The translations under genes and the position numbers were made by a program. 64,000 nucleotides of DNA from Phytoseiulus persimilis. Its lineage: Eukaryota; Arthropoda; Arachnida; Mesostigmata; Phytoseiidae. Shown here one piece after another: positions 34,059 through 53,042 of this stretch; the first letter of the stretch is position 1, and each line of letters opens with the position of its first letter. The notes beneath the pieces were generated by a model. It worked only from the letters and a program-made list of their open reading frames with translations, was not told where the DNA came from and made no database searches. The DNA is taken from NCBI GenBank assembly GCA_037576195.1, contig CM075104.1, forward strand, positions 440,775 through 504,774. Direction: 5' to 3'.

Positions 34059-34519
34059 TGTTGGAGATCAGAATCTGAAGCCTGTCGGGCTCAGATCTCG
34101 CACGCGTCTGAGAGCATGACACACTCAGATGACTCACTGTACTCCCAAGTCACGACGTCTGGGAAATGCAACGAAATCGGGGTTCCAACCCCGACAGCAG
34201 ATGTAAGGGACTGATACAGACAGTCCACATAAAACCAAGAGTACGGAGTCGGGATTACAACCCCTCCGACCTACAAACTAGACCATCTGTCAACTTATGT
34301 TAAGATGTGACTCATCTGGTGTCTGGACTCTAGACCAATCATGGGAGAGCTACGCTCCCCTTCTAGGTATATAAGGACCCTCTTTTCGAATAAACTTCAC
34401 TGTGGTACAGAGCCTCCTACTCTACACGTCTCTTGCGTTGTCACTCTTGTTGTCAACTGAGCTAGTGTTCCACATCTTCGATCCTCTACCTTCGAACCCT
34501 ACGACTTCCAGTCCTATCA
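34059..34519 (+). mobile_element. Family A LTR 1
   Basis: TGTTGGAGATC...CCTATCA, 461 bp. It carries a TATATAA box (34368-34374) and an AATAAA signal (34389-34394) 14 bases later. It differs from LTR 3 at about 5 positions and from LTR 2 at about 7. Confidence 0.95.
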
Positions 34520-34529
34520 CGTTATCAGC
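34520..34529 (+). promoter_or_regulatory. Probable half-tRNA-Ile primer-binding site, copy A1
   Basis: Immediately after the LTR the sequence is CGTTATCAGC. It is complementary to the anticodon stem-loop of tRNA-Ile(AAU) if the wobble inosine at position 34 pairs with C. The further bases CACG also match after a 1-base offset. This is the same tRNA region implied for Copia B. The tRNA sequence is from memory. Confidence 0.55.
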
Positions 34530-34582
34530 CACGTATTCGCTACGTGACGACACAGCGTGACTTCGCGATCGACTACTGTCGG

Positions 34583-34640
34583 GTAAGCTGACCTCTACCT
34601 ACTCACCTAGCTACAGCTCAGCTAATACAGTTGCAGTCAG
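34583..34640 (+). promoter_or_regulatory. Leader splice donor and acceptor candidates, copy A1
   Basis: The untranslated leader contains GGGTAAGC, with a consensus-like donor at 34583. This is followed by several CAG acceptor candidates up to TTGCAG at 34631-34636, just before the gag ATG at 34658. A leader donor would allow subgenomic RNAs for the downstream env-like and coiled-coil genes, as in retroviruses. The same sequence is present in copy A2 (donor at 42997). Confidence 0.35.
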
Positions 34641-34657
34641 GTATATTTTTTCGGCCC

Positions 34658-37600
34658 ATGCAAAGTGCTCCAGAGACCGAAGCTTCGTTTAATCTTGACG
34701 ATTACGAGCTCCTAGAGTCTCCTGAAGAGAGAGTGATGGCTGACTCCTCTTCCGCAAGCGGATCTGGTTCAAAATCCAATCATGCATGCAGCATCACATT
34801 GGCTGATGATGGCAGAAACTGGCTCGCGTGGTCTTCACTGGTCACCGTGGTCCTGCAGAACAGCGGTGACGCCTACAAAGTTGTTTCTGGCGATCTTGTC
34901 ATAACAGCGACCGGCTATGAAGCTGCGAACGCTATGGCCAAAACAATCATCCTTAACTCAATCTCCCCCGTTCTGATAGCCACGTACTTCAGCATTTCTA
35001 CCCAAGATCTCAATGCGAAAGATCTCTATGAGGCACTGAAGAAGCGTTTTGCTCAAACAAGCGGTATTGCTCAAGACATAGCTCTTAGCTCGTTCTATAG
35101 CTTCCGCTACAATTCTTCGAAATCTACGACGAAGAATATAGATAATTTCAACAAATTATGCAGCGCATCGCACTTGCTGGCACGAAGGTGGACGAGAAAC
35201 AGGCATGCCAGCGTCTCCTGCAAAGCTTGCCCTCGTCCTGGGAAGGTCTTCGTTTGTTCTGGAGTGTTAAAACCGGAACCGATCAGACTCTTTCCAACCT
35301 TTACGTTCTTCTCCGTGAAGAAGCAATGCGACGTGAAAACTCCTCCCAGGCGGATCCGACCGCCTTGTTCTCTCGTCTCTCTATTCGCTCAAATAGACGA
35401 CCCAACTTCAACAATCGTCCTCAATACGATAATCGTCGTAATCAGAACTCCTCTTACCGACCTCAATCACGTCCTTCAAATACTTTTCAACGCGCTTCCC
35501 GCTTCAATTCCAACTCGTACAACTCCAACTCCAATGCTCGCTACCAGAACTCGAATCAAAACCGAAGAGTCGCCTCCAATCCAACTCAGGCTCCACCCGC
35601 TAATGCTTGGCGATCCAGCCAACCTCCTCGACCTCGTGTTTCGACCCAACCCCCACGCTCTCGCCAGCCACCTCTGAATCAGAGGCGCACTTCTCGCCCA
35701 ACAGCCTATAATGCTGAGACAATCGATCCCTTCGGATCTGATGTCGAGGTTCACATTGCCTCTGCTGCGCATAACAATCTTGATTCCTCAGTATGGTTAA
35801 TCGATTCTGGGGCAACCCACAACATTTGCAATGATTTGGATCTTTCCCGAAATTATCTCGCATACTCTTGTCCCCGTACTGTGAAAGTCGGCGGTCACCA
35901 ACAACTTCAAGCGTTTGGTGAAGGCGAGATCTTGCTTGTTGTGAACGGCTCCAATGGAGAAACTCTTTTACATCTCCATGAGGTTCTCTACGTGCCCGAA
36001 ATGAGGCGAAACCTCGTGTCGATGGCCTGTCTGATGAATGACAATTGGTCAATTACTGCCACTAAGACCACCCTTCGCTTGAACCGAGACTTAGCTACTC
36101 TCAGGGTTCGAGTGAACGACGGCCTTTTTGCCCTCCGAGCTACAGCTGTGACGGTTCCCATATCTGCCGAATGCTTGCTTTCATCGTCACAATCAGTCAC
36201 TCTGCAGAGTGCTCATGAAACACTTGGACACGTTAATAAACGCCAAGTTCAGCAATTTTTAGCTCGAGAGGGGATTCCCTTCAAAAGGGACCAGATCACC
36301 TGCACTGCCTGTATTGAAGGAAAACTGAGTCGGGCGACGTATCGCTCGAAACCCGATTCAGCTGTACCGCGGTCCCTGGGATACATTTCCACCGATCTGT
36401 GTGGTCCTATGTCAACTCCTGGTCTCAAAGGAGAACGTTACTTTATGAATATGAAAGACACCATGTCTCGTTTCAATCGAATCTTCTTGCTCAAAACCAA
36501 AGATCAAGCTCCCGCTCTCATCTAGCAATTCCTAACTTGGTTTCACACTCAAACCGGTACTCAAGTCAAGCAACTCTTCTGTGACCACGGCCTAGAATTC
36601 AATAATGCTCAAGTCAAAGCTTCTCTAGCTTCAATCGGCGCAGAGCTCGTCATGAGCCATGTTGCCTGTTCTCCCCAGAACGGCCGCGCTGAACGTCAAA
36701 ATCAAACTATCACTAAACTCGCTAGAACCATGCTCCTTGATTCAAAACTTCCGGAATTCTTGTGGCCAGAAGCTTGCAGATGTGCCGTTTTCATTCTCAA
36801 TATCGTAGACGTTTGTCCCCAAACAAACAAGTCTCCGTATGAAACAATTTACAAAGTGAAACCAAAGATCTCTCATCTACGCCCTTTCGGCTCCCCCTGC
36901 TTCATCTACAACGAAGGAGAAACTGACAAATGGACACACCGCGGCATCCCCGCGTTTCTGATCGGTTACACCGACCGTGTTGACGGCTTTCGTGTGTATC
37001 TCCCAGGTTCTCCTCCCTCAATTAGGGAAACCAAAGACGTCAGGTTCTTGGGGAAGGCACCAAAGAGTGCAGCGCATGTCCCCGGTTTGGGAACCGCCGA
37101 TGAAGCCACTGATTTTATGGACGCGCATGATTCCTCCGATTGCGATAGCATCGTTGAGGACCGGCATCCTGACGAGGAGCCCTTTCCGCCTGGAGCATTT
37201 GACTCGGCTGACGAAAGTGATTCTGCAGCTACGCGCTCGATCACGATACCCCCAATGGAGCCAATGAAAATGAACCTTCGACGCCGTACGAATCTTCGTA
37301 AGCCAAAGCGCTACGAAACAGAGGTGCAGCTAGCAGCGCCCTCTTCACCTGAGCCACAGACTCTTGCACAGGCTTTTGCGAGTCCAGAAGCAGAGTACTG
37401 GAAAGAAGCAATGGCTGAGGAAATGGCCGCACTTAAAGCTCATGGTGTTTGGACATTGGTCGACCCACCACAGAACAAGAAACCCGTAACTTGTCGCTGG
37501 GTCTTCCGCAGGAAAACCAATGCTGAAAATGAAATAGACCGATACCGTGCACGTCTCGTTGTTCGCGGTTATAATCAAATTCCTGGTCAAGAATTTCAGG

Positions 37601-38898
37601 AGCTCTTTAGCCCTGTTGCCAGGCTGGACACTGTCCGCGTTTTGCTTGCCACGAGTGCATCAATGCGTCTAAAACTTCGTCAATTTGACGTCACTACCGC
37701 CTTCCTCTATGGCGATCTCCAGGAACAAATCTGGATGACTCAACCCCCCGGATGGTCAGATGACACCGGCAGGGTATGCCTGTTGCACAAAAGTCTATAC
37801 GGGCTCAAACAAGCTCCGCGATACTGGAATCAAAAATTGGCAGATGTTCTACGGAATCTCAACTTCACTCAAAGCCAAGCCGATCACTGCCTATTCTACT
37901 GGCACGGCTCAAATGGCGAACTTCTAATGCTAGCAGTGTACGTCGATGATGGGCTAATCGCCTCGACGCATGAACACTTGATTACAGATACACTTACCAA
38001 ACTGGGAAAATCATTCAAACTCAAGACTTCTCCTCTGAGTCTTTTCCTTGGCATTCAGATTCATATCGATTCCGATCACAATATCTGGCTCAACCAGTAC
38101 AAGTACATCAAAAACATCCTGAAAAGGTTCAATCTTGAGGACTGTCGTCCCGTCTCAATTCCCGCAGACTCGGGAATATACGACATTGAGCCTACAACTG
38201 AAACTCGCGCAGAAGATCGACCTTATCGCCAACTTCTTGGCGCTCTCATGTTCTTATCTATCTGTACGCGACCAGATGTCTGTTTCTCCGTGGGTTTCCT
38301 AGCTCGCTTCCTTGAGAACTATTCAGAACAACACTGGCAGGCAGCACTGAAGATCCTGCGTTACTTGCAGGCGACACCCAACCTGTCAATTGTTTACTCC
38401 GGAAGCTCGTCCACCCCGCTAGCTGAAACGCTTAAGCTTTATTCGGACGCCGATTTTGCTGCTTGTAAACAGACCCGACGCTCGGTAAGTGGCTCACTTG
38501 TCACACTTGCCGGCGGTCCAGTCCTGTGGTCTTCCCAACAGCAACGATCAGTCTCACTGTCCTCCACCGAGAGCGAGTTCATAGCGGTCACTGACTGCTC
38601 AAAGTCTGCTCTCTGGCTTCGAACACTCTTCCAAGAATTACGAATCACTATTCGTCCAGTGATCTTCGTGGACAACATTGGAGCGATAAAGCTCATAGAG
38701 AATCCAGTCTTCCACAAACGCACGAAACACATTTCCACGAGATTCTTCTTCATTCGTCAACTACACGAACGTAAACAAGTCGAATATCGATATATTCCGA
38801 CGACAGAGAATCTCAGTGACGGTCTGACGAAACCACTTCACAAACCAATCTTCGAGCGTTATGGTTATGGTTATGGTTATTTATTGATCCTCCAATGA
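34658..38898 (+). pseudogene. Copia A1 gag-pol (one frameshift, one in-frame TAG)
   Basis: The ATG at 34658 opens a Copia polyprotein. Domains: Gag (residues of the form DDGRNWLAW, then an Asn/Gln/Arg-rich tail without a CCHC knuckle); protease IDSGATHNIC near 35800; integrase zinc region H-H-C-C at 36213-36330; integrase core with Asp in STDLCGP (36395), Asp in CDHGLEF (36583) and Glu in NGRAERQ (36690); RT with FDVTTAFLYGD (37686) and YVDDGLIAS (37942); RNase H with YSDADFAACKQTRRS (38440). A 1-base deletion near 35150 (compared with copy A2) shifts the frame in gag, and a TAG at 36523-36525 interrupts the integrase; everything else is open. The stop is displaced by a 114-bp replacement at 38859-38972. 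Confidence 0.9.
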
Positions 38899-38972
38899 GA
38901 TATCTACATTTTCTTTTATATACATATCACATGGGACCCAGTTCCTGGGGCGATTGCGTTCAGCGGATCTCT
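38859..38972 (+). other. 114-bp replacement unique to copy A1, with TTATGG repeats
   Basis: Where copy A2 has TCTTCG (47269-47274), copy A1 has 114 bp beginning with three TTATGG repeats, then an AT-rich stretch, ending CAGCGGATCTCT. It changes the last residues of pol and separates the pol stop from the env-like ATG. There is no target-site duplication. Its source is unknown; a templated repair patch is a possibility. Confidence 0.8.
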
Positions 38973-38993
38973 AACACTGATCGGCTTGCGACC

Positions 38994-39491
38994 ATGGCCG
39001 CTACCACAATCTTGTTCATAGTGTTCACGCTCTACGTTCTCTCTGTCCAATCCGCGTCTCCGAACTATTTTCGCTTCGAAGACTGCGATGACTCCTGTGT
39101 TTCATTAAACATCAGCTGTACAATTAGCAAGAAACCAACCGGTTTCCAATGCGCCTGTACACGCTCAGCATCGGCATGCTACAATGAGGCATCCGAGTCC
39201 GTGGTCTGTCTGAGGCCTCTTCTCCCTGCTGTGGGTGGCGAACAAATTTGGAAAGAATTCCGGGATCAACACTACCCCGTCCTTCCCCCTGTCATCATTG
39301 GAAACAGGTTTCTGCACTATGCTTTCGCAAGTGCAGGCGCTATACTCGCATTGGCCGTCTTTCTCGGAATCACGGTCCTTTGCATGGTCTACGATAAGCG
39401 TAGAAACTATCATTCATTTGCGAACCCATCGCCAAACCCGGCAGTTGATGGCCCCTACATGCCAACCACGGAGCTCGTCTCTCAACCCTAA
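38994..39491 (+). CDS. Env-like small type I membrane protein, copy A1 (165 aa)
   Basis: The ATG has a good Kozak context (GACCATGG). The protein has an N-terminal signal peptide (about residues 1-20, ending SVQS), a short ectodomain with seven cysteines (31, 35, 42, 53, 55, 62, 72) and one N-glycosylation sequon (Asn39), a transmembrane helix at about 108-132 (ASAGAILALAVFLGITVL), a basic stop-transfer KRR, and a Pro-rich tail of about 30 residues. The topology is that of a type I surface protein. I recognise no family; it is much shorter than retroviral Env and lacks an obvious furin site or fusion peptide. It is intact in both copies, which differ at few residues (Gly103/Asp, Val132/Ile). 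Expression may need splicing from the leader. Confidence 0.75.
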   Translation: MAATTILFIVFTLYVLSVQSASPNYFRFEDCDDSCVSLNISCTISKKPTGFQCACTRSASACYNEASESVVCLRPLLPAVGGEQIWKEFRDQHYPVLPPVIIGNRFLHYAFASAGAILALAVFLGITVLCMVYDKRRNYHSFANPSPNPAVDGPYMPTTELVSQP

Positions 39492-39880
39492 TTTCATTTA
39501 TCCGATGCACTTCATTCCTATTTTACCCATTCGGTCCTAGCATGCAACTTAGGTAGCACAAACAACTCGAAATGCTCAATTCAATTCTCCCATAGCCCTC
39601 CAAACTGCCGTGAATCTGCGAGGTATCCGAGAGAGGCACCTAGCTGTGCTGTGCGTGGTTCATACGCATCTCTTCTCTCTCTGTTTCTCAACGCACTTCT
39701 TCGGCCTCTATTCACTTCTTCCACTCCTCTCGCATGATTCTCCTTCGGCATGGCATAATATCACGGTATTAACCCGATGTACACCTCCAGGTCCCTCGTG
39801 TTTTTCCCTTGGTTCCTTGGACGCAGTTCGCCCCGACCGCTAGCATCCCATCGCTTGGTTTACCTCCAAATCCCTGCACT
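39492..39880 (+). other. Spacer between env-like and coiled-coil genes, copy A1
   Basis: This is a pyrimidine-rich stretch (CTTCTCTCTCTGTTTCTC near 39670) with short open frames only. The equivalent place in copy A2 contains element C. The empty site here reads GGCATAATATCACGG. Confidence 0.5.
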
Positions 39881-40765
39881 ATGCCCAAACAGTCACCTTT
39901 CTGGATTCACGTACTGGAACTCCAGGATCTGCATCGCGTTCCACGCGATGTTGCTCAAAAGGCGTCAGATCGCCTTTGGCCTCAAATGGATGAACAATCC
40001 CGATTTTACTACAGACAGGCAGTCGCGCCTGAATTCAACGAGAAAGCGAAACTTCTCCACACCGCGGCACGCCGCGCCAGACTGACGGCCCCTGCACTCG
40101 GATCGGCAGAATATGCCGAAACACTAATCGTGGAGTGCGCCACAAATCAAAAGAAAATTTCGGATCTAGAAAACACTGTCGAATGCCTGCGACGAAAATC
40201 GCAAAGCTCCTCGGCAGAAATCTCCACAGACCCTGCGCCTGAGGACACTCGGCCTACATCGGCAGACCACCTAAATGCAGATCCAGACTATCTAGACGAA
40301 GAAGTCTACAGCCCGTCAATCCCAACTGGTGCGGATGACCCTGTCGAATCAGAAGAAGCTCGTCAACTTGAGCTCGCTGAGACAGAGATCCGCATGCTCA
40401 AACAAAAGATCTACGATCTACGCGCTGAATCAGAGGCTAAACAGCGCCTCTATGATCGAGACAGAGGAAACTGGCATGACGGACGCGCATTCTATCAAAA
40501 GAAAATTGCTCGTCTCGAAAACGAACTAGAAGAATCAACAGCCTCAAAATACTTGTGTGATCACACTGATCACATTGAGCAACTCGAAACTCTCAACAGA
40601 AAGCAATCCGAAAGTAATTCCAAAGATCGACAACAACTACTCGATCTCCTTAACGAGAATTACGAGCTGAAAACACAGCTACTCAAAACGAAAATTGAGC
40701 TGAAACGCGCTCAACCAATCGACTGGCCGGAGTCCAGTTCTAGCACTCACAGTGGTTCTGTCTGA
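39881..40765 (+). CDS. Coiled-coil protein with HMG-box-like N-terminus, copy A1 (294 aa)
   Basis: I chose the ATG at 39881 because the protein-like pattern starts there. Residues about 5-60 have the spacing of an HMG box (PFWIHVLEL..., LWPQMDEQSRFYYRQA: Trp, then basic/acid, then Tyr and Ala). This is a weak resemblance, nearest to the HMG fold of the maelstrom type. A short coiled coil follows (about 88-105), then an acidic Ser/Pro/Asp linker (106-156) and a long coiled coil (157-275; e.g. EIRMLKQKIYDLRAE, KKIARLENELEES). The C-terminus is Ser/Thr-rich. The frame is intact and nearly identical in copy A2. A plus-strand AATAAA follows at 40873. The role is unknown; an RNP or DNA-binding accessory is only a guess. 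Confidence 0.75.
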   Translation: MPKQSPFWIHVLELQDLHRVPRDVAQKASDRLWPQMDEQSRFYYRQAVAPEFNEKAKLLHTAARRARLTAPALGSAEYAETLIVECATNQKKISDLENTVECLRRKSQSSSAEISTDPAPEDTRPTSADHLNADPDYLDEEVYSPSIPTGADDPVESEEARQLELAETEIRMLKQKIYDLRAESEAKQRLYDRDRGNWHDGRAFYQKKIARLENELEESTASKYLCDHTDHIEQLETLNRKQSESNSKDRQQLLDLLNENYELKTQLLKTKIELKRAQPIDWPESSSSTHSGSV

Positions 40766-40872
40766 ACCTCTTCTATTATGTAATGCATGCTAGGTGCCCT
40801 CAATCATCAACAATAGCCATATCAAACTCCTAAGTTACCTCAGACATATGCATGAACGTTATATCCTGAGTT

Positions 40873-40878
40873 AATAAA
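40873..40878 (+). terminator. Plus-strand polyadenylation signal AATAAA, copy A1
   Basis: AATAAA lies about 108 bases after the coiled-coil stop and about 31 bases from the opposing minus-strand signal. This makes a compact tail-to-tail junction inside the element. Confidence 0.6.
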
Positions 40879-40908
40879 CACAATGCAAGCTTAGAAAAAC
40901 ATTTCTCG

Positions 40909-40914
40909 TTTATT
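40909..40914 (-). terminator. Minus-strand polyadenylation signal overlapping the antisense stop codon, copy A1
   Basis: On the minus strand the sequence reads TAATAAA. The TAA (40915-40913) is the stop codon of the antisense gene and shares its last two bases with AATAAA. Confidence 0.65.
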
Positions 40915-41837
40915 ATACTCGTTCTGTCTCCACAAACGACTCAAACCCACGACAGAGAGGCAGCGGGATGCGTCCGCTGCTCTTTGCCTGCACCGCGGCC
41001 GGTTTCACGGCCCGGCCTGCTCGCAGTGCAACGCACTGCCTCCGCTGCGGAGAATAGCAGACCAGACACCGGTCCACTAATCGGCAGACGAAGCCTTCAA
41101 GGGAGATCCTCTCAACCTCCCCAACGTCCGGCTCGGCTCCCTCCCCCTCAGGTGTCCTCACTAATGGGGCGTCGTCCCCCGTGACCCACCGAGCCGAGCT
41201 GGTGGTCACCCTCTCGACTGCCAACGAGAACCTCGTCGAGGTCTCGTCTTGGCCCGACCCTCTCGTGGCCACCGCATGGCCGCCCGTCTGTTCCAGGCCT
41301 GGAAAGATGGAATGACGTTAAATCAGGCCTCAACAGACACTGACAAAACACGGAAAAATCGACCGCTCAGCACTTACTGATCACGGCCGCGCCCACGACA
41401 AGGGCAACAAAACTGATGATCGCCGCGGCGATCATCCTTGTTCGGGAGCACCCGCTCCCACAGGTGCCCCCGCTCCCACAGGTGCCCCTTGGCATCCCGC
41501 CACTGCTGAGGCCGAGGACACTGCGGAGGCCCCAGCTCCCGGAGCTTGTGCTCCGCTCCGTGGACTGGCGAGCCCGCTCCCGCGGTCGCCATGGGGAGAC
41601 ACGGCCGACCGATTCGACACTCGATGATCGGCCTTCCCTCGCCAAGCGATCGGCGCGGAGAGCCTCCGACGCTCTCCAAGTGGCCTCCGCGGCTGCTGCC
41701 GCCGGGCTCTCGCCGATCTCCAGGTCCACCTCCTCCTGGGAGCTCAACCAGGCACCCATCCTCTCCTCGGTTGTTCCTCGAGTCGTTCGGTTTTCCGAGC
41801 TGGGGGTGAGGGTGCGGCGACCGGAGCGTAGAAGCAT
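40913..41837 (-). CDS. Antisense spliced gene for a predicted type II membrane protein, copy A1 (281 aa)
   Basis: Predicted exons on the minus strand are 41837-41378 and 41298-40913. The 79-nt intron has donor GTAAGTG and acceptor TTTCCAG, the splice phase matches (phase 1), and the total is 846 nt including the stop. A TATA-like ATAAAAAG lies about 58 bases upstream of the ATG (revcomp of 41895-41902). The protein has an Arg/Ser/Glu-rich N-terminal region (1-133) with small GSGGTC repeats, a hydrophobic helix (about 135-153, IAAAIISFVALVVGAAVI) preceded by Arg, and a C-terminal region with five cysteines (225, 231, 234, 242, 269). Topology suggests type II. The region is markedly more GC-rich than the rest of the element, hinting at a captured gene. 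No known family is recognised. The opposite strand also has a long frame, so the strand choice is inference. Confidence 0.65.
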
Positions 41838-42472
41838 CACGAGGCACAAATTACAAGTTCAAAACGAACTGTACTCTGAACTAATTCCGCACGCCTTTTT
41901 ATCCTATCCGCCTAGGGCGAAATCAACCGACTTTTTCCCTCATTCTCGCAACTTGGATCAGCGACTCTGGGCAACCAAACTAAAAATCTTGAAAAACCAT
42001 CGAAACCTCTACGGATTTTCATCTTTATTGAAAGAAATCATTACTTCCCTGTGAGAGGGGAAAATGGTACAAATCTTGAGACACATGGATCATGATTTCC
42101 AGGTCAAATCACCAAGAAAAATGTCATATTTCACACTTCCTCAACTTTTATTTAAATGCCCCCCAACTGGCTCCACCCATAACACGCTCTCCGGAGAAAC
42201 TACGTCGAACTTCCTAACTGCGCATGCAGTCTCGATGAAAAACGAACGGTTGTAGCGTCTACCGACTACCGCGAATATTTGGATCCACGAACAATTCAAA
42301 CTGAAATAATCACTGTGAAGGAATCACTCGATTTTCTCAAGAAAAATTCGAACTCGACCGATTCCTCAATCTTCATAGCCAGAGGGGATATTCAATGTTT
42401 AATCACATTACGGAACTATCTTACGAATACTTTTTCAGCTGCGAGATCTTCGGACTCGACAGCCAGAGGGGA
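41838..42472 (+). other. 3' non-coding region of copy A1 with two polypurine-tract-like motifs
   Basis: The first part would be the promoter of the antisense gene. AGCCAGAGGGGAT occurs at 42377-42389, and its near-copy AGCCAGAGGGGA occurs at 42461-42472 directly before LTR 2, where it is the probable polypurine tract. No convincing plus-strand gene is seen. Confidence 0.6.
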
Positions 42473-42933
42473 TGTTGGAGATCAGAATCTGAAGCCTGTC
42501 GGGCTCAGATCTCGCACGCGTCTGAGAGCATGACACACTCAGATGACTCACAGTACTCCCAAGTCACGACGTCTGGGAAATGCAACGAAATCGGGGTTCC
42601 AACCCCGACAGCAGATGTAAGGGACTGATACAGACAGTCCACATAAAACCAAGAGTACGGAGTCGGGATTACAACCCCTGCGACCTGCAAACTAGACCAT
42701 CTGTCAACTTATGTTAAGATGTGACTCATCTGGTGTCTGGACTCTAGACCAATCATGGGAGAGCTACGCTCCCCTTCTAGGTATATAAAGACCCTCTTTT
42801 CGAATGAACTTCACTGTGGTACAGAGCCTCCTACTCTACACGTCTCTTGCGCTGTCACTCTTGTTGTCAACTGAGCTAGTGTTCCACACCTTCGATCCTC
42901 TACCTTCGAACCCTACGACTTCCAGTCCTATCA
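42473..42933 (+). mobile_element. Family A LTR 2 (shared middle LTR)
   Basis: This 461-bp LTR serves as 3' LTR of copy A1 and 5' LTR of copy A2. It has its own differences (about three private substitutions, including AATGAAC in place of AATAAAC at the polyadenylation signal). No host sequence or target-site duplication flanks it. Confidence 0.95.
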
Positions 42934-42943
42934 CGTTATCAGC
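42934..42943 (+). promoter_or_regulatory. Probable half-tRNA-Ile primer-binding site, copy A2
   Basis: CGTTATCAGC follows the middle LTR directly, identical to copy A1, so copy A2 has a complete primer site. Confidence 0.55.
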
Positions 42944-43071
42944 CACGTATTCGCTACGTGACGACACAGCGTGACTTCGCGATCGACTACTGTCGGGTAA
43001 GCTGACCTCTACCTACTCACCTAGCTACAGCTCAGCTAATACAGTTGCAGTCAGGTATATTTTTTCGGCCC

Positions 43072-46000
43072 ATGCAAAGTGCTCCAGAGACCGAAGCTTC
43101 GTTTAATCTTGACGATTACGAGCTCCTAGATTCTCCTGAAGAGAGAGTGATGGCTGACTCCTCTTCCGCAAGCGGATCTGGTTCAAAATCCAATCATGCA
43201 TGCAGCATCACATTGGCTGATGATGGCAGAAACTGGCTCGCGTGGTCTTCACTGGTCACCGTGGTCCTGCAGAACAGCGGTGACGCCTACAAAGTTGTTT
43301 CTGGCGATCTTGTCATAACAGCGACCGGCTATGAAGCTGCGAACGCTATGGCCAAAACAATCATCCTTAACTCAATCTCCCCCGTTCTGATAGCCACGTA
43401 CTTCAGCATTTCTACCCAAGATCTCAATGCGAAAGATCTCTATGAGGCACTGAAGAAGCGTTTTGCTCAAACAAGCGGTATTGCTCAAGACATAGCTCTT
43501 AGCTCGTTCTATAACTTCCGCTACAGTTCTTCGAAATCTACGACGAAGAATATAGATAATTTCCAACAAATTATGCAGCGCATCGCACTTGCTGGCACGA
43601 AGGTGGACGAGAAACAGGCATGCCAGCGTCTCCTGCAAAGCTTGCCCTCGTCCTGGGAAGGTCTTCGTTTGTTCTGGAGTGTTAAAACCGGAACCGATCA
43701 GACTCTTTCCAACCTTTACGTTCTTCTCCGTGAAGAAGCAATGCGACGTGAAAACTCCTCCCAGGCGGATCCGACCGCCTTGTTCTCTCGTCTCTCTATT
43801 CGCTCAAATAGACGACCCAACTTCAACAATCGTCCTCAATACGATAATCGTCGTAATCAGAACTCCTCTTACCGACCTCAATCACGTCCTTCAAATACTT
43901 TTCAACGCGCTTCCCGCTTCAATTCCAACTCGTACAACTCCAACTCCAATGCTCGCTACCAGAACTCGAATCAAAACCGAAGAGTCGCCTCCAATCCAAC
44001 TCAGGCTCCACCCGCTAATGCTTGGCGATCCAGCCAACCTCCTCGACCTCGTGTTTCGACCCAACCCCCACGCTCTCGCCAGCCACCTCTGAATCAGAGG
44101 CGCACTTCTCGCCCAACAGCCTATAATGCTGAGACAATCGATCCCTTCGGATCTGATGTCGAGGTTCACATTGCCTCTGCTGCGCAATCTTGATTCCTCA
44201 GTATGGTTAATCGATTCTGGGGCAACCCACAACATTTGCAATGATTTGGATCTTTTCCGAAATTATCTCGCATACTCTTGTCCCCGTACTGTGAAAGTCG
44301 GCGGTCACCAACAACTTCAAGCGTTTGGTGAAGGCGAGATCTTGCTTGTTGTGAACGGCTCCGATGGAGAAACTCTTTTACATCTCCATGAGGTTCTCTA
44401 CGTGCCCGAAATGAGGCGAAACCTCGTGTCGATGGCCTGTCTGATGAATGACAATTGGTCAATTACTGCCACTAAGACCACCCTTCGCTTGAACCGAGAC
44501 TTAGCTACTCTCAGGGTTCGAGTGAACGACGGCCTTTTTGCCCTCCGAGCTACAGCTGTGACGGTTCCCATATCTGCCGAATGCTTGCTTTCATCGTCAC
44601 AATCAGTCACTCTGCAGAGTGCTCATGAAACACTTGGACACGTTAATAAACGCCAAGTTCAGCAATTTTTAGCTCGAGAGGGGATTCCCTTCAAAAGGGA
44701 CCAGATCACCTGCACTGCCTGTATTGAAGGAAAACTGAGTCGGGCGACGTATCGCTCGAAACCCGATTCAGCTGTACCGCGGTCCCTGGGATACATTTCC
44801 ACCGATCTGTGTGGTCCTATGTCAACTCCTGGTCTCAAAGGAGAACGTTACTTTATGAATATGAAAGACACCATGTCTCGTTTCAATCGAATCTTCTTGC
44901 TCAAAACCAAAGATCAAGCTCCCGCTCTCATCTAGCAATTCCTAACTTGGTTTCACACTCAAACCGGTACTCAAGTCAAGCAACTCTTCTGTGACCACGG
45001 CCTAGAATTCAATAATGCTCAAGTCAAAGCTTCTCTAGCTTCAATCGGCGCAGAGCTCGTCATGAGCCATGTTGCCTGTTCTCCCCAGAACGGCCGCGCT
45101 GAACGTCAAAATCAAACTATCACTAAACTCGCTAGAACCATGCTCCTTGATTCAAAACTTCCGAAATTCTTGTGGCCAGAAGCTTGCAGATGTGCCGTTT
45201 TCATTCTCAATATCGTAGACGTTTGTCCCCAAACAAACAAGTCTCCGTATGAAACAATTTACAAAGTGAAACCAAAGATCTCTCATCTACGCCCTTTCGG
45301 CTCCCCCTGCTTCATCTACAACGAAGGAGAAACTGACAAATGGACACACCGCGGCATCCCCGCGTTTCTGATCGGTTACACCGACCGTGTTGACGGCTTT
45401 CGTGTGTATCTCCCAGGTTCTCCTCCCTCAATTAGGGAAACCAAAGACGTCAGGTTCTTGGGGAAGGCACCAAAGAGTGCAGCGCATGTCCCCGGTTTGG
45501 GAACCGCCGATGAAGCCACTGATTTTATGGACGCGCATGATTCCTCCGATTGCGATAGCATCGTTGAGGACCGTCATCCTGACGAGGAGCCCTTTCCGCC
45601 TGGAGCATTTGACTCGGCTGACGAAAGTGATTCTGCAGCTACGCGCTCGATCACGATACCCCCAATGGAGCCAATGAAAATGAACCTTCGACGCCGTACG
45701 AATCTTCGTAAGCCAAAGCGCTACGAAACAGAGGTGCAGCTAGCAGCGCCCTCTTCACCTGAGCCACAGACTCTTGCACAGGCACTTGCGAGTCCAGAAG
45801 CAGAGTACTGGAAAGAAGCAATGGCTGAGGAAATGGCCGCACTTAAAGCTCATGGTGTTTGGACATTGGTCGACCCACCACAGAACAAGAAACCCGTAAC
45901 TTGTCGCTGGGTCTTCCGCAGGAAAACCAATGCTGAAAATGAAATAGACCGATACCGTGCACGTCTCGTTGTTCGCGGTTATAATCAAATTCCTGGTCAA

Positions 46001-47323
46001 GAATTTCAGGAGCTCTTTAGCCCTGTTGCCAGGCTGGACACTGTCCGCGTTTTGCTTGCCACGAGTGCATCAATGCGTCTAAAACTTCGTCAATTTGACG
46101 TCACTACCGCCTTCCTCTATGGCGATCTCCAGGAACAAATCTGGATGACTCAACCCCCCGGATGGTCAGATGACACCGGCAGGGTATGCCTGTTGCACAA
46201 AAGTCTATACGGGCTCAAACAAGCTCCGCGATGCTGGAATCAAAAATAGGCAGATGTTCTACGGAATCTCAACTTCACTCAAAGCCAAGCCGATCACTGC
46301 CTATTCTACTGGCACGGCTCAAATGGCGAACTTCTAATGCTAGCAGTGTACGTCGATGATGGGCTAATCGCCTCGACGCATGAACACTTGATTACAGATA
46401 CACTTACCAAACTGGGAAAATCATTCAAACTCAAGACTTCTCCTCTGAGTCTTTTCCTTGGCATTCAGATTCATATCGATTCCGATCACAATATCTGGCT
46501 CAACCAGTACAAGTACATCAAAAACATCCTGAAAAGGTTCAATCTTGAGGACTGTCGTCCCGTCTCAATTCCCGCAGACTCGGGAATATACGACATTGAG
46601 CCTACAACTGAAACTCGCGCAGAAGATCGACCTTATCGCCAACTTCTTGGCGCTCTCATGTTCTTATCTATCTGTACGCGACCAGATGTCTGTTTCTCCG
46701 TGGGTTTCCTAGCTCGCTTCCTTGAGAACTATTCAGAACAACACTGGCAGGCAGCACTGAAGATCCTGCGTTACTTGCAGGCGACACCCAACCTGTCAAT
46801 TGTTTACTCCGGAAGCTCGTCCACCCCGCTAGCTGAAACGCTCAAGCTTTATTCGGACGCCGATTTTGCTGCTTGTAAACAGACCCGACGCTCGGTAAGT
46901 GGCTCACTTGTCACACTTGCCGGCGGTCCAGTCCTGTGGTCTTCCCAACAGCAACGATCAGTCTCACTGTCCTCCACCGAGAGCGAGTTCATAGCGGTCA
47001 CTGACTGCTCAAAGTCTGCTCTCTGGCTTCGAACACTCTTCCAAGAATTACGAATCACTATTCGTCCAGTGATCTTCGTGGACAACATTGGAGCGATAAA
47101 GCTCATAGAGAATCCAGTCTTCCACAAACGCACGAAACACATTTTCACGAGATTCTTCTTCATTCGTCAACTACACGAACGTAAACAAGTCGAATATCGA
47201 TATATTCCGACGACAGAGAATCTCAGTGACGGTCTGACGAAACCACTTCACAAACCAATCTTCGAGCGTCTTCGAACACTGATCGGCTTGCGACCATGGC
47301 CGCTACCACAATCTTGTTCATAG
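43072..47323 (+). pseudogene. Copia A2 gag-pol (4-base deletion, shared TAG, private TAG)
   Basis: Same domain order as copy A1. Here gag is open from the ATG at 43072 through the protease border, but 4 bases are missing near 44187 (compared with copy A1), giving a stop at 44193. The integrase TAG recurs at 44933-44935 in the identical context ATC TAG CAA TTC. A further TAG occurs at 46247-46249 in the RT (Leu codon in copy A1). The reading frame otherwise runs to 47323 and overlaps the start of the env-like gene by 28 bases (ATG at 47296), probably the original arrangement. Gag has no CCHC knuckle and ends in an Asn/Arg/Gln/Pro-rich stretch. Confidence 0.9.
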
Positions 47324-47793
47324 TGTTCACGCTCTACGTTCTCTCTGTCCAATCCGCGTCTCCGAACTATTTTCGCTTCGAAGACTGCGATGACTCCTGT
47401 GTTTCATTAAACATCAGCTGTACAATTAGCAAGAAACCAACCGGTTTCCAATGCGCCTGTACACGCTCAGCATCGGCATGCTACAATGAGGCATCCGAGT
47501 CCGTGGTCTGTCTGAGGCCTCTTCTCCCTGCTGTGGGTGGCGAACAAATTTGGAAAGAATTCCGGGATCAACACTACCCCGTCCTTCCCCCTGTCATCAT
47601 TGACAACAGGTTTCTGCACTATGCTTTCGCAAGTGCAGGCGCTATACTCGCATTGGCCGTCTTTCTCGGAATCACGGTCCTTTGCATGATCTACGATAAG
47701 CGTAGAAACTATCATTCATTTGCGAACCCATCGCCGAACCCGGCAGTTGATGGCCCCTACATGCCAACCACGGAGCTCGTCTCTCAACCCTAA
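47296..47793 (+). CDS. Env-like small type I membrane protein, copy A2 (165 aa)
   Basis: Intact second copy with the same signal peptide, seven cysteines, glycosylation sequon, transmembrane helix and tail as the copy at 38994. It starts inside the pol frame (+1 relative), an overlap that copy A1 has lost through its 114-bp replacement. Few residues differ from copy A1. With gag-pol broken in both copies, the intact state of this small frame is notable but may only reflect youth. Confidence 0.75.
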   Translation: MAATTILFIVFTLYVLSVQSASPNYFRFEDCDDSCVSLNISCTISKKPTGFQCACTRSASACYNEASESVVCLRPLLPAVGGEQIWKEFRDQHYPVLPPVIIDNRFLHYAFASAGAILALAVFLGITVLCMIYDKRRNYHSFANPSPNPAVDGPYMPTTELVSQP

Positions 47794-48063
47794 TTTCATT
47801 TATCCGATGCACTTCATTCCTATTTTACCCATTCGGTCCTAGCATGCAACTTAGGTAGCACAAACAACTCGAAATGCTCAATTCAATTCTCCCATAGCCC
47901 TCCAAACTGCCGTGAATCTGCGACGTATCCGAGAGAGGCACCTAGCTGTGCTGTGCGTGGTTCATACGCATCTCTTCTCTCTCTGTTTCTCAACGCACTT
48001 CTTCGGCCTCTATTCACTTCTTCCACTTCTCTCGCATGATTCTCCTTCGGCATGGCATAATAT
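47794..48063 (+). other. Spacer after env-like gene, copy A2, left of element C
   Basis: Nearly identical to 39492-39761 of copy A1. Its last four bases, ATAT, are the left target duplication of element C. Confidence 0.6.
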
Positions 48064-48548
48064 TGTCATGAAGCTCAAGGAAGCCACATTCAGTCGAGGT
48101 ACTCCAAAGACGACCGTATCTGGACAGGTAGCCAGAGAGCAGTCAGCGGAGACCACATGTACGTCACATGCAAGCGATTCTGTGCGCAAGTCGTGTAGGG
48201 AGCGAGAGTAAGGCGAGAGAGGAGAGACTGAATAAAAAGACACCACGAGACGAAGACAGTGGAGTCGAATTGTGGACCCTCACGCCCGTTCCTTTCTTCC
48301 AACCCAACAGCCCTAGCTTTAGAGTTGAAGCGCCCCCGCTCCGCTCTAAGAGTAATTGTGCCCTGACCCAGCGTCCCGTCCTTGCCCTAGCCAGCGTCCC
48401 AAGACCCGTCCGACCTCGCCCTTCCACGCTTCCGAATTGTGTCCGAGTAAGTTCGCCTACTTACTCTGGGAGCGACGGCCTATCCATCCCCCAGGTCGCT
48501 AGGACGCCCTGTGAGCGAGCTTTAGCAGATAGCGGAAACCTCGTTACA
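48064..48548 (+). mobile_element. 5' LTR of element C
   Basis: 485 bp, TGTCATGAAG to CGTTACA. It contains GAATAAAAAG near 48231, which could serve as TATA-like or polyadenylation signal. It is almost identical to 49395-49879. Confidence 0.93.
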
Positions 48549-49394
48549 GTTGGTGGAGATGCGATCGATCCGCCCTACGGTCGATCGAAATAACGTGTAA
48601 ACCAGTGCTAGGAGAAGCAATCGTAGAGCAACAGCCCAATACCCGTGGTCTTTCGTGCCAGAAGACAAAACTTCTTTGTGAAGAGTGAAACTGCCGCGTC
48701 ACCCCCCGGGGAGGAGCGCAATAGAGCGCGAGCGCAGTTCACTAATCTTACCCAACCCAGTGTCCACAGCACAATTAATGCTTATGAACCGAAAAATGAA
48801 GAATATTTGTCAAAATTGAGAGAGATGGCGAATAATTTCATTCAAAAATACTTGACGGAAGAGGGAATGTACAAGAAGCCCCGAACGATCAGAAATTAGA
48901 AGCAGAACAATCATCCGTTCCGACCCGCCTCACAACGACCCAGTCCCTGACGTCCGATCCTGAACGATACGAATTGGATTCTTGAGTCAACCACTCAACG
49001 GCGCAACGTCCAGGACCCGCTGGAACAAACCTCATCGCCTTCGACCAGTCGCAACGCAAAAACCCAGTCAAGAAAATGGCTATCGATCTCGGACCGAAAT
49101 TCTTGATCGTCGAAACACTGCCCTACGGAACAACCCAAAAATTTGCCGATTTTTCCAGTAAGCAAGCTGTTCTCGCAACATCGCGTCCCGAGGCCTTCAT
49201 CAGCAACCGATACCCAGCGTGCACGTCTCACTTGTTACGAGAGGTGAACGCGGTCTACCAGCTAGAGCATCGGAGAACGACAGCGAAGCCGCACGCGAAA
49301 GAACAGGCAATAACGCAGGACCCCGCAATGGTTGTCGGAGTCTCAAAGTTGAAAGCCCAAGAGCCGGGCCGGCTCTTCTCGAGGAGGGAGGCAG
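48549..49394 (+). other. Internal region of element C without recognisable coding domains
   Basis: A frame at 48645-48899 encodes a basic then acidic 84-residue peptide, and one at 49076-49402 encodes 108 residues. Neither shows zinc knuckle, protease, RT or integrase motifs. The stretch may be remnants of gag plus untranslated sequence. Confidence 0.6.
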
Positions 49395-49879
49395 TGTCAT
49401 GAAGCTCAAGGAAGCCACATTCAGTCGAGGTACTCCAAAGACGACCGTATCTGGACAGGTAGCCAGAGAGCAGTCAGCGGAGACCACATGTACGTCACAT
49501 GCAAGCGATTCTGTGCGCAAGTCGTGTAGGGAGCGAGAGTAAGGCGAGAGAGGAGAGACTGAATAAAAAGACACCACGAGACGAAGACAGTGGAGTCGAA
49601 TTGTGGACCCTCACGCCCGTCCCTTTCTTCCAACCCAACAGCCCTAGCTTTAGAGTTGAAGCGCCCCCGCTCCGCTCTAAGAGTAATTGTGCCCTGACCC
49701 AGCGTCCCGTCCTTGCCCTAGCCAGCGTCCCAAGACCCGTCCGACCTCGCCCTTCCACGCTTCCGAATTGTGTCCGAGTAAGTTCGCCTACTTACTCTGG
49801 GAGCGACGGCCTATCCATCCCCCAGGTCGCTAGGACGCCCTGTGAGCGAGCTTTAGCAGATAGCGGAAACCTCGTTACA
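49395..49879 (+). mobile_element. 3' LTR of element C
   Basis: 485 bp, preceded by a purine-rich tract and followed by the right ATAT duplication. Copia A sequence then resumes at ATATCACGGTATTAACC. Confidence 0.93.
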
Positions 49880-50002
49880 ATATCACGGTATTAACCTGAT
49901 GTACACCTCCAGGTCCCTCGTGTTTTTCCCTTGGTTCCTTGGACGCAGTTCGCCCCGACCGCTAGCATCCCATCGCTTGGTTTACCTCCAAATCCCTGCA
50001 CT

Positions 50003-50887
50003 ATGCCCAAACAGTCACCTTTCTGGATTCACGTACTGGAACTCCAGGATCTGCATCGCGTTCCACGCGATGTTGCTCAAAAGGCGTCAGATCGCCTTTG
50101 GCCTCAAATGGATGAACAATCCCGATTTTACTACAGACAGGCAGTCGCGCCTGAATTCAACGAGAAAGCGAAACTTCTCCACACCGCGGCACGCCGCGCC
50201 AGACTGACGGCCCCTGCACTCGGATCGGCAGAATATGCCGAAACACTAATCGTGGAGTGCGCCACAAATCAAAAGAAAATTTCGGATCTAGAAAACACTG
50301 TCGAATGCCTGCGACGAAAATCGCAAAGCTCCTCGGCAGAAATCTCCACAGACCCTGCGCCTGAGGACACTCGGCCTACATCGGCAGACCACCTAAATGC
50401 AGATCCAGACTATCTAGACGAAGAAGTCTACAGCCCGTCAATCCCAACTGGTGCGGATGACCCTGTCGAATCAGAAGAAGCTCGTCAACTTGAGCTCGCT
50501 GAGACAGAGATCCGCATGCTCAAACAAAAGATCTACGATCTACGCGCTGAATCAGAGGCTAAACAGCGCCTCTATGATCGAGACAGAGGAAACTGGCATG
50601 ACGGACGCGCATTCTATCAAAAGAAAATTGCTCGTCTCGAAAACGAACTAGAAGAATCAACAGCCTCAAAATACTTGTGTGATCACACTGATCACATTGA
50701 GCAACTCGAAACTCTCAACAGAAAGCAATCCGAAAGTAATTCCAAAGATCGACAACAACTACTCGATCTCCTTAACGAGAATTACGAGCTGAAAACACAG
50801 CTACTCAAAACGAAAATTGAGCTGAAACGCGCTCAACCAATCGACTGGCCGGAGTCCAGTTCTAGCACTCACAGTGGTTCTGTCTGA
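50003..50887 (+). CDS. Coiled-coil protein with HMG-box-like N-terminus, copy A2 (294 aa)
   Basis: Second intact copy, apparently identical in protein to the copy at 39881. Element C lies about 120 bases upstream and could affect its expression. The plus-strand AATAAA follows at 50995-51000. The HMG-box resemblance is weak (Trp33, Tyr43/Tyr44 and Ala47 pattern); the coiled coil at about 157-275 is strong. Confidence 0.75.
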   Translation: MPKQSPFWIHVLELQDLHRVPRDVAQKASDRLWPQMDEQSRFYYRQAVAPEFNEKAKLLHTAARRARLTAPALGSAEYAETLIVECATNQKKISDLENTVECLRRKSQSSSAEISTDPAPEDTRPTSADHLNADPDYLDEEVYSPSIPTGADDPVESEEARQLELAETEIRMLKQKIYDLRAESEAKQRLYDRDRGNWHDGRAFYQKKIARLENELEESTASKYLCDHTDHIEQLETLNRKQSESNSKDRQQLLDLLNENYELKTQLLKTKIELKRAQPIDWPESSSSTHSGSV

Positions 50888-51034
50888 ACCTCTTCTAATA
50901 TGTAATGCATGCTAGGTGCCCTCAATCATCAACAATAGCCATATCAAACTCCTAAGTTACCTCAGACATATGCATGAACGTTATATCCTGAGTTAATAAA
51001 CACAATGCAAGCTTAGAAAAACATTTCTCGTTTA

Positions 51035-51941
51035 TTATACTCGTTCTGTCTCCACAAACGACTCAAACCCACGACAGAGAGGCAGCGGGATGCGTCCGCT
51101 CCTCTTTGCCTGCACCGCGGCCGGTTTCACGGCCCGGCCTGCTCGCAGTGCAACGCACTGCCTCCGCTGCGGAGAATAGCAGACCAGACACCGGTCCACT
51201 AATCGGCAGACGAAGCCTTCAAGGGAGATCCTCTCAACCTCCCCAACGTCCGGCTCGGCTCCCTCCCCCTCAGGTGTCCTCACTAATGGGGCGTCGTCCC
51301 CCGTGACCCACCGAGCCGAGCTGGTGGTCACCCTCTCGACTGCCAACGAGAACCTCGTCGAGGTCTCGTCTTGGCCCGACCCTCTCGTGGCCACCGCATG
51401 GCCGCCCGTCTGTTCCAGGCCTGGAAAGATGGAATGACGTTAAATCAGGCCTCAACAGACACTGACAAAACACGGAAAAATCGACCGCTCAGCACTTACT
51501 GATCACGGCCGCGCCCACGACAAGGGCAACAAAACTGATGATCGCCGCGGCGATCATCCTTGTTCGGGAGCACCCGCTCCCACAGGTGCCCCTTGGCATC
51601 CCGCCACTGCTGAGGCCGAGGACACTGCGGAGGCCCCAGCTCCCGGAGCTTGTGCTCCGCTCCGTGGACTGGCGAGCCCGCTCCCGCGGTCGCCATGGGG
51701 AGACACGGCCGACCGATTCGACACTCGATGATCGGCCTTCCCTCGCCAAGCGATCGGCGCGGAGAGCCTCCGACGCTCTCCAAGTGGCCTCCGCGGCTGC
51801 TGCCGCCGGGCTCTCGCCGATCTCCAGGTCCACCTCCTCCTGGGAGCTCAACCAGGCACCCATCCTCTCCTCGGTTGTTCCTCGAGTCGTTCGGTTTTCC
51901 GAGCTGGGGGTGAGGGTGCGGCGACCGGAGCGTAGAAGCAT
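51035..51941 (-). CDS. Antisense spliced gene for a predicted type II membrane protein, copy A2 (275 aa)
   Basis: Exons on the minus strand are 51941-51500 and 51420-51035, with the same donor, acceptor, TATA-like box (revcomp of 51999-52006) and TAATAAA stop/polyadenylation overlap as copy A1. It is in frame. One six-residue unit (TCGSGG) before the membrane helix is missing compared with copy A1, an 18-base in-frame length difference. A Ser-to-Arg change occurs near the C-terminus. That splice sites, frame and length difference all stay compatible with coding supports, but does not prove, that this strand is the gene. Confidence 0.65.
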
Positions 51942-52576
51942 CACGAGGCACAAATTACAAGTTCAAAACGAACTGTACTCTGAACTAATTCCGCACGCCT
52001 TTTTATCCTATCCGCCTAGGGCGAAATCAACCGACTTTTTCCCTCATTCTCGCAACTTGGATCAGCGACTCTGGGCAACCAAACTAAAAATCTTGAAAAA
52101 CCATCGAAACCTCTACGGATTTTCATCTTTATTGAAAGAAATCATTACTTCCCTGTGAGAGGGGAAAATGGTACAAATCTTGAGACACATGGATCATGAT
52201 TTCCAGGTCAAATCACCAAGAAAAATGTCATATTTCACACTTCCTCAACTTTTATTTAAATGCCCCCCAACTGGCTCCACCCATAACACGCTCTCCGGAG
52301 AAACTACGTCGAACTTCCTAACTGCGCATGCAGTCTCGATGAAAAACGAACGGTTGTAGCGTCTACCGACTACCGCGAATATTTGGATCCACGAACAATT
52401 CAAACTGAAATAATCACTGTAAAGGAATCACTCGATTTTCTCAAGAAAAATTCGAACTCGACCGATTCCTCAATCTTCATAGCCAGAGGGGATATTCAAT
52501 GTTTAATCACATTACGGAACTATCTTACGAATACTTTTTCAGCTGCGAGATCTTCGGACTCGACAGCCAGAGGGGA
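51942..52576 (+). other. 3' non-coding region of copy A2 with polypurine tract
   Basis: Nearly identical to 41838-42472. It has AGCCAGAGGGGAT at 52481-52493 and AGCCAGAGGGGA at 52565-52576, the latter abutting LTR 3 as polypurine tract. Confidence 0.65.
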
Positions 52577-53037
52577 TGTTGGAGATCAGAATCTGAAGCC
52601 TGTCGGGCTCAGATCTCGCACGCGTCTGAGAGAATGACACACTCAGATGACTCACAGTACTCCCAAGTCACGACGTCTGGGAAATGCAACGAAATCGGGG
52701 TTCCAACCCCGACAGCAGATGTAAGGGACTGATACAGACAGTCCACATAAAACCAAGAGTACGGAGTCGGGATTACAACCCCTGCGACCTACAAACTAGA
52801 CCATCTGTCAACTTATGTTAAGATGTGACTCATCTGGTGTCTGGACTCTAGACCAATCATGGGAGAGCTACGCTCCCCTTCTAGGTATATAAAGACCCTC
52901 TTTTCGAATAAACTTCACTGTGGTACAGAGCCTCCTACTCTACACGTCTCTTGCGTTGTCACTCTTGTTGTCAACTGAGCTAGTGTTCCACACCTTCGAT
53001 CCTCTACCTTCGAACCCTACGACTTCCAGTCCTATCA
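52577..53037 (+). mobile_element. Family A LTR 3
   Basis: 461-bp LTR closing the array, followed by the right CTCCC duplication (53038-53042) and then Copia B sequence. Confidence 0.95.
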
Positions 53038-53042
53038 CTCCC

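Follow-up and report, generated by a model that had tools for sequence, protein, structure and literature searches.

The 64,000-nucleotide stretch of Phytoseiulus persimilis DNA analysed here (the window; C4:440775-504774) contains a Ty1/Copia retrotransposon whose units carry three accessory open reading frames (ORFs) between pol and the next long terminal repeat (LTR). ORF1 encodes a small protein with a single transmembrane segment (TM), ORF2 a coiled-coil protein, and ORF3 is an antisense gene with two predicted exons. We show that at least five deeply diverged ORF3 classes occur on backbones that are nearly identical in other respects, that whole ORF3 genes are exchanged among these backbones so that the classes are shuffled, that ORF1 is conserved across many Copia lineages of the genome, and that all three frames are under purifying selection. 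A cell-surface role is suggested because two membrane proteins are predicted, one conserved and provided with a trafficking motif, the other variable and modular. We give roughly an even chance to a virus-like Ty1/Copia retrotransposon in which ORF1 serves as an envelope substitute and ORF3 as a recombining determinant of specificity or interference. The wide occurrence of ORF1 and the hypervariability and modular exchange of ORF3 go beyond a preliminary description of the window, which had proposed a Copia-derived virus-like element, a view with which our findings are compatible, or a cassette of captured host genes.

ORF3 classes are exchanged among near-identical backbones

The genome assembly searched comprises 127 contigs (181 Mb in total), and four of these measure 28-55 Mb. 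Exon 2 of ORF3 was found within ~1.5 kb of ORF2 at 20 of 30 ORF2 loci of the window element's family (family A), and these copies represent five classes, with six copies in a, four in b, six in c, three in d and one in e. The ten loci left out (L041, L052, L054, L055, L056, L058, L059, L061, L065 and L066) are array units, interrupted copies and a relative, L065, with 68% identity in ORF2. Within classes (39 pairs), the mean identity is 0.963 for ORF2 DNA and 0.925 for exon 2 protein, with a minimum of 0.80 for the latter. Between classes (151 pairs), ORF2 DNA still has a mean identity of 0.953 (0.909-0.988), and exon 2 protein has a mean of 0.379 and a maximum of 0.46. The nearest neighbour by ORF2 belongs to a different ORF3 class in half of the copies (10/20). 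Between class representatives, the proportion of synonymous differences (pS) in exon 2 is 0.62-0.82, compared with 0.02-0.14 in the ORF2 of the same copies; the ORF3 classes are synonymously saturated with respect to one another.

The divergence has clear edges along the DNA. All three between-class pairs that were plotted are 92-100% identical over ORF2 and 75-88% over the next 100 bp, drop to 35-56% over window positions 51003-51902, and then rise to 68-80% over 100 bp and to 87-98% beyond; the within-class pair plotted has no identity trough over ORF3. Class c sits on backbones up to ~9% apart in ORF2. The class-b copy L004 is 98.7% identical to the class-a window over 3.7 kb of pol and ORF1, and L002 is 99.0% identical to it; judging from coordinates only, L002 is probably part of the class-b copy L053, from which an insertion of several kb separates it. 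Searching with class c gave ten matches at 79-100% identity, other longer matches at 31-41%, and short fragments of 27-60 residues at 50-90%. In-place point mutation was considered as the source of this pattern and rejected, as it does not explain it; the exchange of entire ORF3 genes between backbones does.

The classes could also be selectively meaningless. In that case, divergent Copia lineages would have arrived separately, through hybridisation or by horizontal transfer, and everything but the segment too diverged for recombination would have been homogenised by recombination or gene conversion. The sharp edges of the divergent segment and its homogeneous flanks fit such a history, as do the presence of ORF3 in two Copia families of one genome, described below, and the existence of L065, the single full-length ORF2 relative at 68% identity, in which a class-e-like ORF3 remnant is recognised by eye. 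On the other hand, five classes coexist, class c extends over its distant backbones, which looks hard for drift to keep, and ORF3 of class a is still constrained. We regard neutral classes as unlikely.

Structure of the tandem insertion

Window positions 34059-53037 are one tandem Copia insertion of two units with a common middle LTR, in agreement with the coordinates given in the preliminary description. Three copies of a 461-bp LTR start at 34059, 42473 and 52577, with TG...CA ends (TGTTGGAG...TCCTATCA). The insertion is single because one 5-bp CTCCC target-site duplication, at 34054-34058 and 53038-53042, encloses the entire two-unit block. It looks young, with 5 differences in 462 aligned sites between the outer LTRs. 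In three blocks that were aligned, unit 1 and unit 2 have 99.1-99.5% identity. The TG...CA LTRs and 5-bp duplication are those of Ty1/Copia elements (Pseudoviridae), and unit 2 has the corresponding Pfam domains (RVT_2, E = 2.7e-45; Retrotran_gag_2, 4e-15; SH3_retrovirus, 4.9e-14; Pol_BBD, 3e-19). As had been described, gag-pol is broken across several frames in both units, and ORF1, ORF2 and ORF3 are open in both. Elsewhere in the genome, a copy with a 99%-identical ORF1 has a 1318-codon stop-free frame that spans the reverse transcriptase (RT) domain; ~136 nt found at this place in the window units are missing from that copy. The features are as follows (window positions; + and - denote strand).

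34054-34058: target-site duplication CTCCC, left
34059-34519 (+): 5' LTR, TG...CA, 461 bp
34631-36525 (+): unit 1 gag with the beginning of pol, reading frame disrupted (ORFs 34631-35677 and 35158-36525; Pfam domains taken from the unit 2 equivalents)
36652-38898 (+): unit 1 rest of pol including RT domain (RVT_2 match C4:478221-478940)
38994-39491 (+): unit 1 ORF1, 165 aa, signal-like start, single TM
39881-40765 (+): unit 1 ORF2, coiled-coil, 294 aa
40913-41298 (-): unit 1 exon 2 of ORF3, encoding a domain in which four Cys are conserved
41378-41837 (-): unit 1 ORF3 exon 1, basic N-terminal part and TM
42473-42933 (+): middle LTR, common to both units
43045-44193 (+): unit 2 gag (Retrotran_gag_2)
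44126-47323 (+): unit 2 pol, three separate frames (Pol_BBD, SH3_retrovirus, RVT_2)
47296-47793 (+): unit 2 ORF1
48064-49878 (+): nested insertion between unit 2 ORF1 and ORF2, with ~0.48-kb direct repeats
50003-50887 (+): unit 2 ORF2
51035-51420 (-): unit 2 ORF3 exon 2, class a
51421-51499 (-): unit 2 ORF3 predicted 79-nt intron (GTAAGT...TTTCCAG)
51500-51941 (-): unit 2 ORF3 exon 1, basic N-terminal part and TM
51006-51957: exchanged segment, edges approximate, where classes are ~50% identical in DNA and beyond which they are much more alike
52577-53037 (+): 3' LTR
53038-53042: target-site duplication CTCCC, right

The 1.8-kb nested insertion in unit 2 has its own direct repeats, starting at 48064 and 49395, and is probably a short non-autonomous LTR element.

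ORF3 is an antisense gene with a predicted intron

Exon 1 of ORF3 codes for a basic region with a TM at its end; the domain encoded by exon 2 has four invariant cysteines. The TM is present in the ORF3 exons of classes a-d and in a homologue from a second family. At the protein level, the classes resemble one another most in antisense frames (best E = 2e-29, compared with 3e-6 for the best sense frame), and we therefore take the antisense strand as the coding one. ORF3 overlaps none of ORF1, ORF2 and pol, and lies antisense and upstream of the 3' LTR, as do genes of the HBZ/ASP kind. No public homologue was found at E<=0.1, and none of seven frames scanned against Pfam gave a match at E<=1.

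The preliminary description had taken ORF3 for an antisense spliced membrane protein. Its strand and TM are borne out, and splicing is a prediction for which an in-frame intron is possible. Both window units have a 79-nt candidate (GTAAGT...CAG) with a pyrimidine-rich acceptor. A phase-1 donor right behind the TM, together with an in-frame acceptor, is available in all four classes tested (a-d), the candidate introns measuring 85 nt in class b (chosen among scanned donors), 98 nt in class c and 112 nt in class d (in L062). The class-b copy L042 reads through both ORF3 frames as one 301-codon frame, unlike L045, L051 and L053. The antisense mRNA of HBZ, from human T-cell leukaemia virus type 1 (HTLV-1), is spliced.

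ORF3 is not restricted to family A. A second Copia family, with ORF1 30-37% identical to that of the window, carries it in 8 copies as a single antisense frame that runs for 288-312 codons without a stop; the homologue was read over its C-terminal 198 residues in one copy. Among the 12 longest matches in this family, none has ORF2 within 5 kb and 9 have ORF1 at 211-379 nt in opposite orientation. Since the second family carries ORF3 without ORF2, ORF3 is probably the older of the two genes in these elements.

Antisense position and a basic N-terminal part would also suit a regulator. Ty1 copy-number control and HTLV HBZ are regulators of this sort, and an antisense transcript could yield ORF3 as a factor for self-restriction or regulation, each class damping its own kind, divergent classes escaping, and membrane location being secondary. 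Besides lying antisense ahead of the 3' LTR and having basic residues before its TM, ORF3 is separated from ORF2 by a junction with AATAAA on both strands in classes a, d and e and on one strand in classes b and c, which is in line with this idea. The TM of classes a-d and of the second family and the conserved cysteine pattern are better suited to a surface protein, however, and the absence of any Pfam match at E<=1 also speaks against a regulator. We think a regulatory ORF3 unlikely.

ORF1 is conserved across many Copia lineages

Searching the genome with the window ORF1 gave 170 candidates, of which 150 were scored: 45 matches have 83-100% identity (close) and 105 have 22-40% (divergent), with many partial matches in both groups. 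For 72 of the 105 divergent and 24 of the 45 close matches, an RT domain is found on the same strand no more than 6 kb upstream, and in 68 of the 72 divergent pairs the distance is 671-891 nt. Control placements are rare, with RT downstream on the same strand in 5 cases and on the opposite strand in 7. Conversely, 94 of the 150 scored RVT_2 matches (443 candidates) have an ORF1 match downstream on the same strand within 6 kb. Six Cys, a Trp, a tyrosine after the TM and a C-terminal PY are invariant in all 11 aligned ORF1s (the window and ten divergent loci). The public protein set yielded eight homologues (E = 4e-38 to 2e-19), and the ORF1 family therefore reaches beyond the assembly searched; the equivalent searches that had been proposed for ORF2 and ORF3 gave nothing at E<=0.1.

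Motifs and hydropathy, the latter against a threshold of our own, were assessed in 19 ORF1 sequences, 11 from the genome searched and the others from further homologues. Length is 157-187 aa in 18 of them, the remaining one being a 139-aa piece. A TM peak exceeds the threshold in 18 of 19, and a YxxPhi motif follows the TM in 15 of 19, including all 11 from the genome searched. YxxPhi is a sorting signal. The window ORF1 has a signal-like hydrophobic start, and its structure model is confident for the ectodomain, with a block predicted local distance difference test (pLDDT) of 93-96, and for the TM, at 91-92. ORF1 is encoded on the RT strand and basic residues follow its TM in the alignment, as in the single-TM, sense-encoded FAST/sORF2 proteins. 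A retroviral class I Env, with its large ectodomain and furin-type RxxR site, does not describe the window ORF1, which has ~85 residues from signal-like start to TM and no RxxR among them.

ORF2 is seen only near family A

Whole or partial ORF2 matches number 94 in the genome, at 46-100% identity. They are seen only in the neighbourhood of family A: 66 have a close ORF1 match no farther than 3.5 kb away, 28 have no ORF1 match nearby, and none accompanies any of the 105 divergent ORF1 matches. ORF2 had been called HMG-box-like, an assignment that gained no support, as no HMG-box was found in Pfam at E<=1 or in a PDB profile search at E<=10. Pfam gave only one match for it, to the coiled-coil TPR_MLP1_2, weak and below cut-off (E = 0.0035).

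Pieces of family A also form tandem arrays, at C3:16.5397-16.5526 Mb (L055, L057-L059, L061 and L066) and C2:7.0183-7.0227 Mb (L048-L050). The array units consist of the ORF1 tail and ORF2 (~1.28 kb) or of ORF2 and ORF3 exon 2 (~1.72 kb), so that the accessory region has here been converted to satellite.

The accessory frames are under purifying selection

Among family-A copies, the ratio of non-synonymous to synonymous proportions (pN/pS) is 0.34 for ORF1 (n=30) and 0.31 for ORF2 (n=23), and in the antisense frame 0.45 for ORF3 exon 1 (n=8) and 0.28 for exon 2 (n=9). Changes common to several copies, which should mostly be older than insertion, give 0.31, 0.21, 0.30 and 0.17 for ORF1, ORF2, exon 1 and exon 2, and singleton changes give 0.77, 0.52, 0.68 and 0.43. 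ORF1 has ratios of 0.17 and 0.25 in two other families (one pair each). For exon 2, the antisense frame has the lowest pN/pS of the six, with stops in 2 of 9 copies compared with 9 of 9 in every other frame. In exon 1, a sense frame comes close to the antisense one (0.52 versus 0.45; stops in 2 and 3 of 8 copies, respectively), and the strand is therefore not settled by exon 1 alone. Internal stops occur in 5 copies of ORF1, 3 of ORF2, 3 of exon 1 and 2 of exon 2, and indels in 8, 11, 5 and 1. The substitution ratios and frame presence by which the preliminary description had proposed to refute its own claim do not refute it in the copies examined, though stops, indels or fragmentation are found in many copies.

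These data bear on whether the frames are passengers, either sequences captured from the host or frames open by chance in GC-rich DNA. The GC-rich ORF3 region does have long open frames on the other strand, the exon 1 sense frame scores almost as low as the antisense one, and stops or indels are found in many copies. Passengers would not be expected to have low pN/pS, lower still for shared changes (0.17-0.31), ORF1 homologues at 22-40% identity in a fixed position, or a phase-1 intron position available across unalignable classes. Nor was an independent host gene family seen among the exon 2 matches, so that the earlier suggestion of captured host genes found no backing: 47 of the 53 are antisense to an ORF2, ORF1 or RT match, one lies near a same-strand RT match alone, and five have no element match in reach (51 of the 94 ORF2 matches were used in this count). 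The passenger reading is already contradicted and we hold it to be very improbable; many copies, constraint and fixed position instead support the earlier claim that the three extra genes belong to the element.

A proposed role at the cell surface

We return to the virus-like retrotransposon with ORF1 as envelope substitute and ORF3 as a specificity or interference determinant, every functional step of which we infer. ORF1 would reach the cell surface and recycle through its YxxPhi tyrosine signal. As an envelope substitute, it could aid the passage of capsids between cells, for instance from soma to germline, and would be the Copia counterpart of the MDG1-group small TM protein in function but not in ancestry. 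ORF3 would be made from an antisense transcript that begins near the 3' LTR, and would be a type II surface protein with its Cys-bearing domain outside. ORF3 may set recognition, either by determining the cell or receptor used or by excluding a related element (interference). Rare ORF3 classes would be advantaged, so that old classes persist, and template switching between co-packaged RNAs would move them onto the prevailing backbone.

A more specific form of this proposal is an allelic recognition system, in which ORF3, as a hypervariable surface protein encoded antisense, would mark every copy with an identity class governing entry or superinfection exclusion among related elements. Negative frequency-dependent selection would preserve at least five ancient classes and template switching would carry them to the current backbone, with ORF1 as the envelope substitute. 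We put it forward tentatively, as a possibility that falls well short of even.

Several observations weigh against the virus-like retrotransposon. The ORF3 domain and the ORF1 model (PDB and BFVD searches) have no significant match to known folds. A signal-peptide-like peak exceeds the hydropathy threshold in just 6 of 19 ORF1 homologues, and ORF1 differs from FAST/sORF2 proteins in size and N-myristoylation motif, not being 63-107 aa long and none of the 19 starting with MG. With one window query, 56 of the 150 scored RT matches have no ORF1 match; the gene may be lacking there or too diverged for a single query. Ten of the 30 ORF2 loci are without an ORF3 match within ~1.5 kb. The splicing, promoter and topology of ORF3 are predictions; the two class-d copies differ in acceptor, L047 offering solely a 128-nt option. 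ORF3 of the second family shows no visible hypervariability, the 12 longest matches being 86-100% identical, and the putative balancing selection on the classes is read from their age and shuffling.

If the proposal is true, this Copia lineage would offer a second route, after the FAST-like sORF2 of Gypsy elements, for retrotransposons that lack a classical Env to pass from cell to cell. To our knowledge, no retrotransposon before it would have had a system of allelic recognition or interference, and competition among transposon copies would become testable. As ORF3 indicates, antisense genes carried by retroelements can be old and membrane-directed as well as apparently spliced.

Comparison with known systems

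Accessory genes in LTR elements are already known, as are antisense genes near the 3' LTR (Retand, HIV-1 ASP). Env interference groups are exemplified by the subgroups of avian leukosis virus. Pseudoviridae are described as having no extracellular phase (PMC8515867, in the part cited here). The small TM sORF2/FAST-like protein of MDG1-group Ty3/Gypsy elements has been tied to capsid transfer from follicle cells to the oocyte, and resembles ORF1 in being small, single-TM and sense-encoded, with basic residues after the TM and no classical Env (PMC11952523). It belongs to Metaviridae, has 63-107 aa and an N-myristoylation motif, and is usually encoded upstream of gag (PMC11952523), whereas ORF1 is a Copia protein of 165 aa, encoded downstream of pol, with a signal-like start, a Cys-bearing ectodomain and a YxxPhi tail. 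Sireviruses, which are plant Copia elements, have an extra ORF downstream of gag-pol for a putative envelope protein (PMC8515867); ORF1, compared by description only, fits this position. That genus is plant-restricted, and the part of its account cited here describes neither an antisense membrane gene nor allele classes (PMC8515867).

For ORF3, the closest likeness in placement is the conserved antisense ORF between pol and the 3' LTR in many copies of Retand, Grande and RIRE2 (PMC11963269). These are plant Ty3/Gypsy elements whose ORFs mostly have a TRP28 domain with predicted DNA binding (PMC11963269). ORF3 differs from them in having a TM and conserved cysteines and, in the seven frames scanned, no Pfam match at E<=1, TRP28 (PF04195) included. 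ASP of human immunodeficiency virus type 1 (HIV-1) is, like ORF3, an antisense retroelement gene, and its product is found at the plasma membrane (PMC3182985); HTLV-1 HBZ is another antisense retroviral gene (PMC9822710, PMC10186651). ASP overprints another gene (PMC8781085), whereas ORF3 has no such overlap and has deeply diverged classes.

Retroviral env resembles ORF3 as a surface-protein gene swapped among otherwise similar proviruses (PMC10536682), and recombined env variants have been tied to receptor use and superinfection resistance (PMC10536682, PMC1325250). Env is a sense-strand gene, whereas ORF3 is a separate antisense Copia gene for which no sequence or fold relation to env was found. 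LTR elements of bdelloid rotifers carry a varied ORF3 of their own, with small TM ORFs proposed as env substitutes and accessory ORFs exchanged modularly; they are retrovirus-like families, and what they share are ORFs of unrelated types instead of classes of a single antisense gene (PMC5408684, as far as cited here). Among the matches listed from the open-licence literature, titles and abstract openings mention neither an antisense membrane gene in Copia nor classes of one.

Satellite repeats elsewhere in the window

Positions 70-12819 of the window are occupied by a large satellite array with nested periods of ~31, 68 and 167 bp. A similar 45-bp repeat occurs in two further arrays, at 18777-20393 and 62907-63662, ~43 kb apart.

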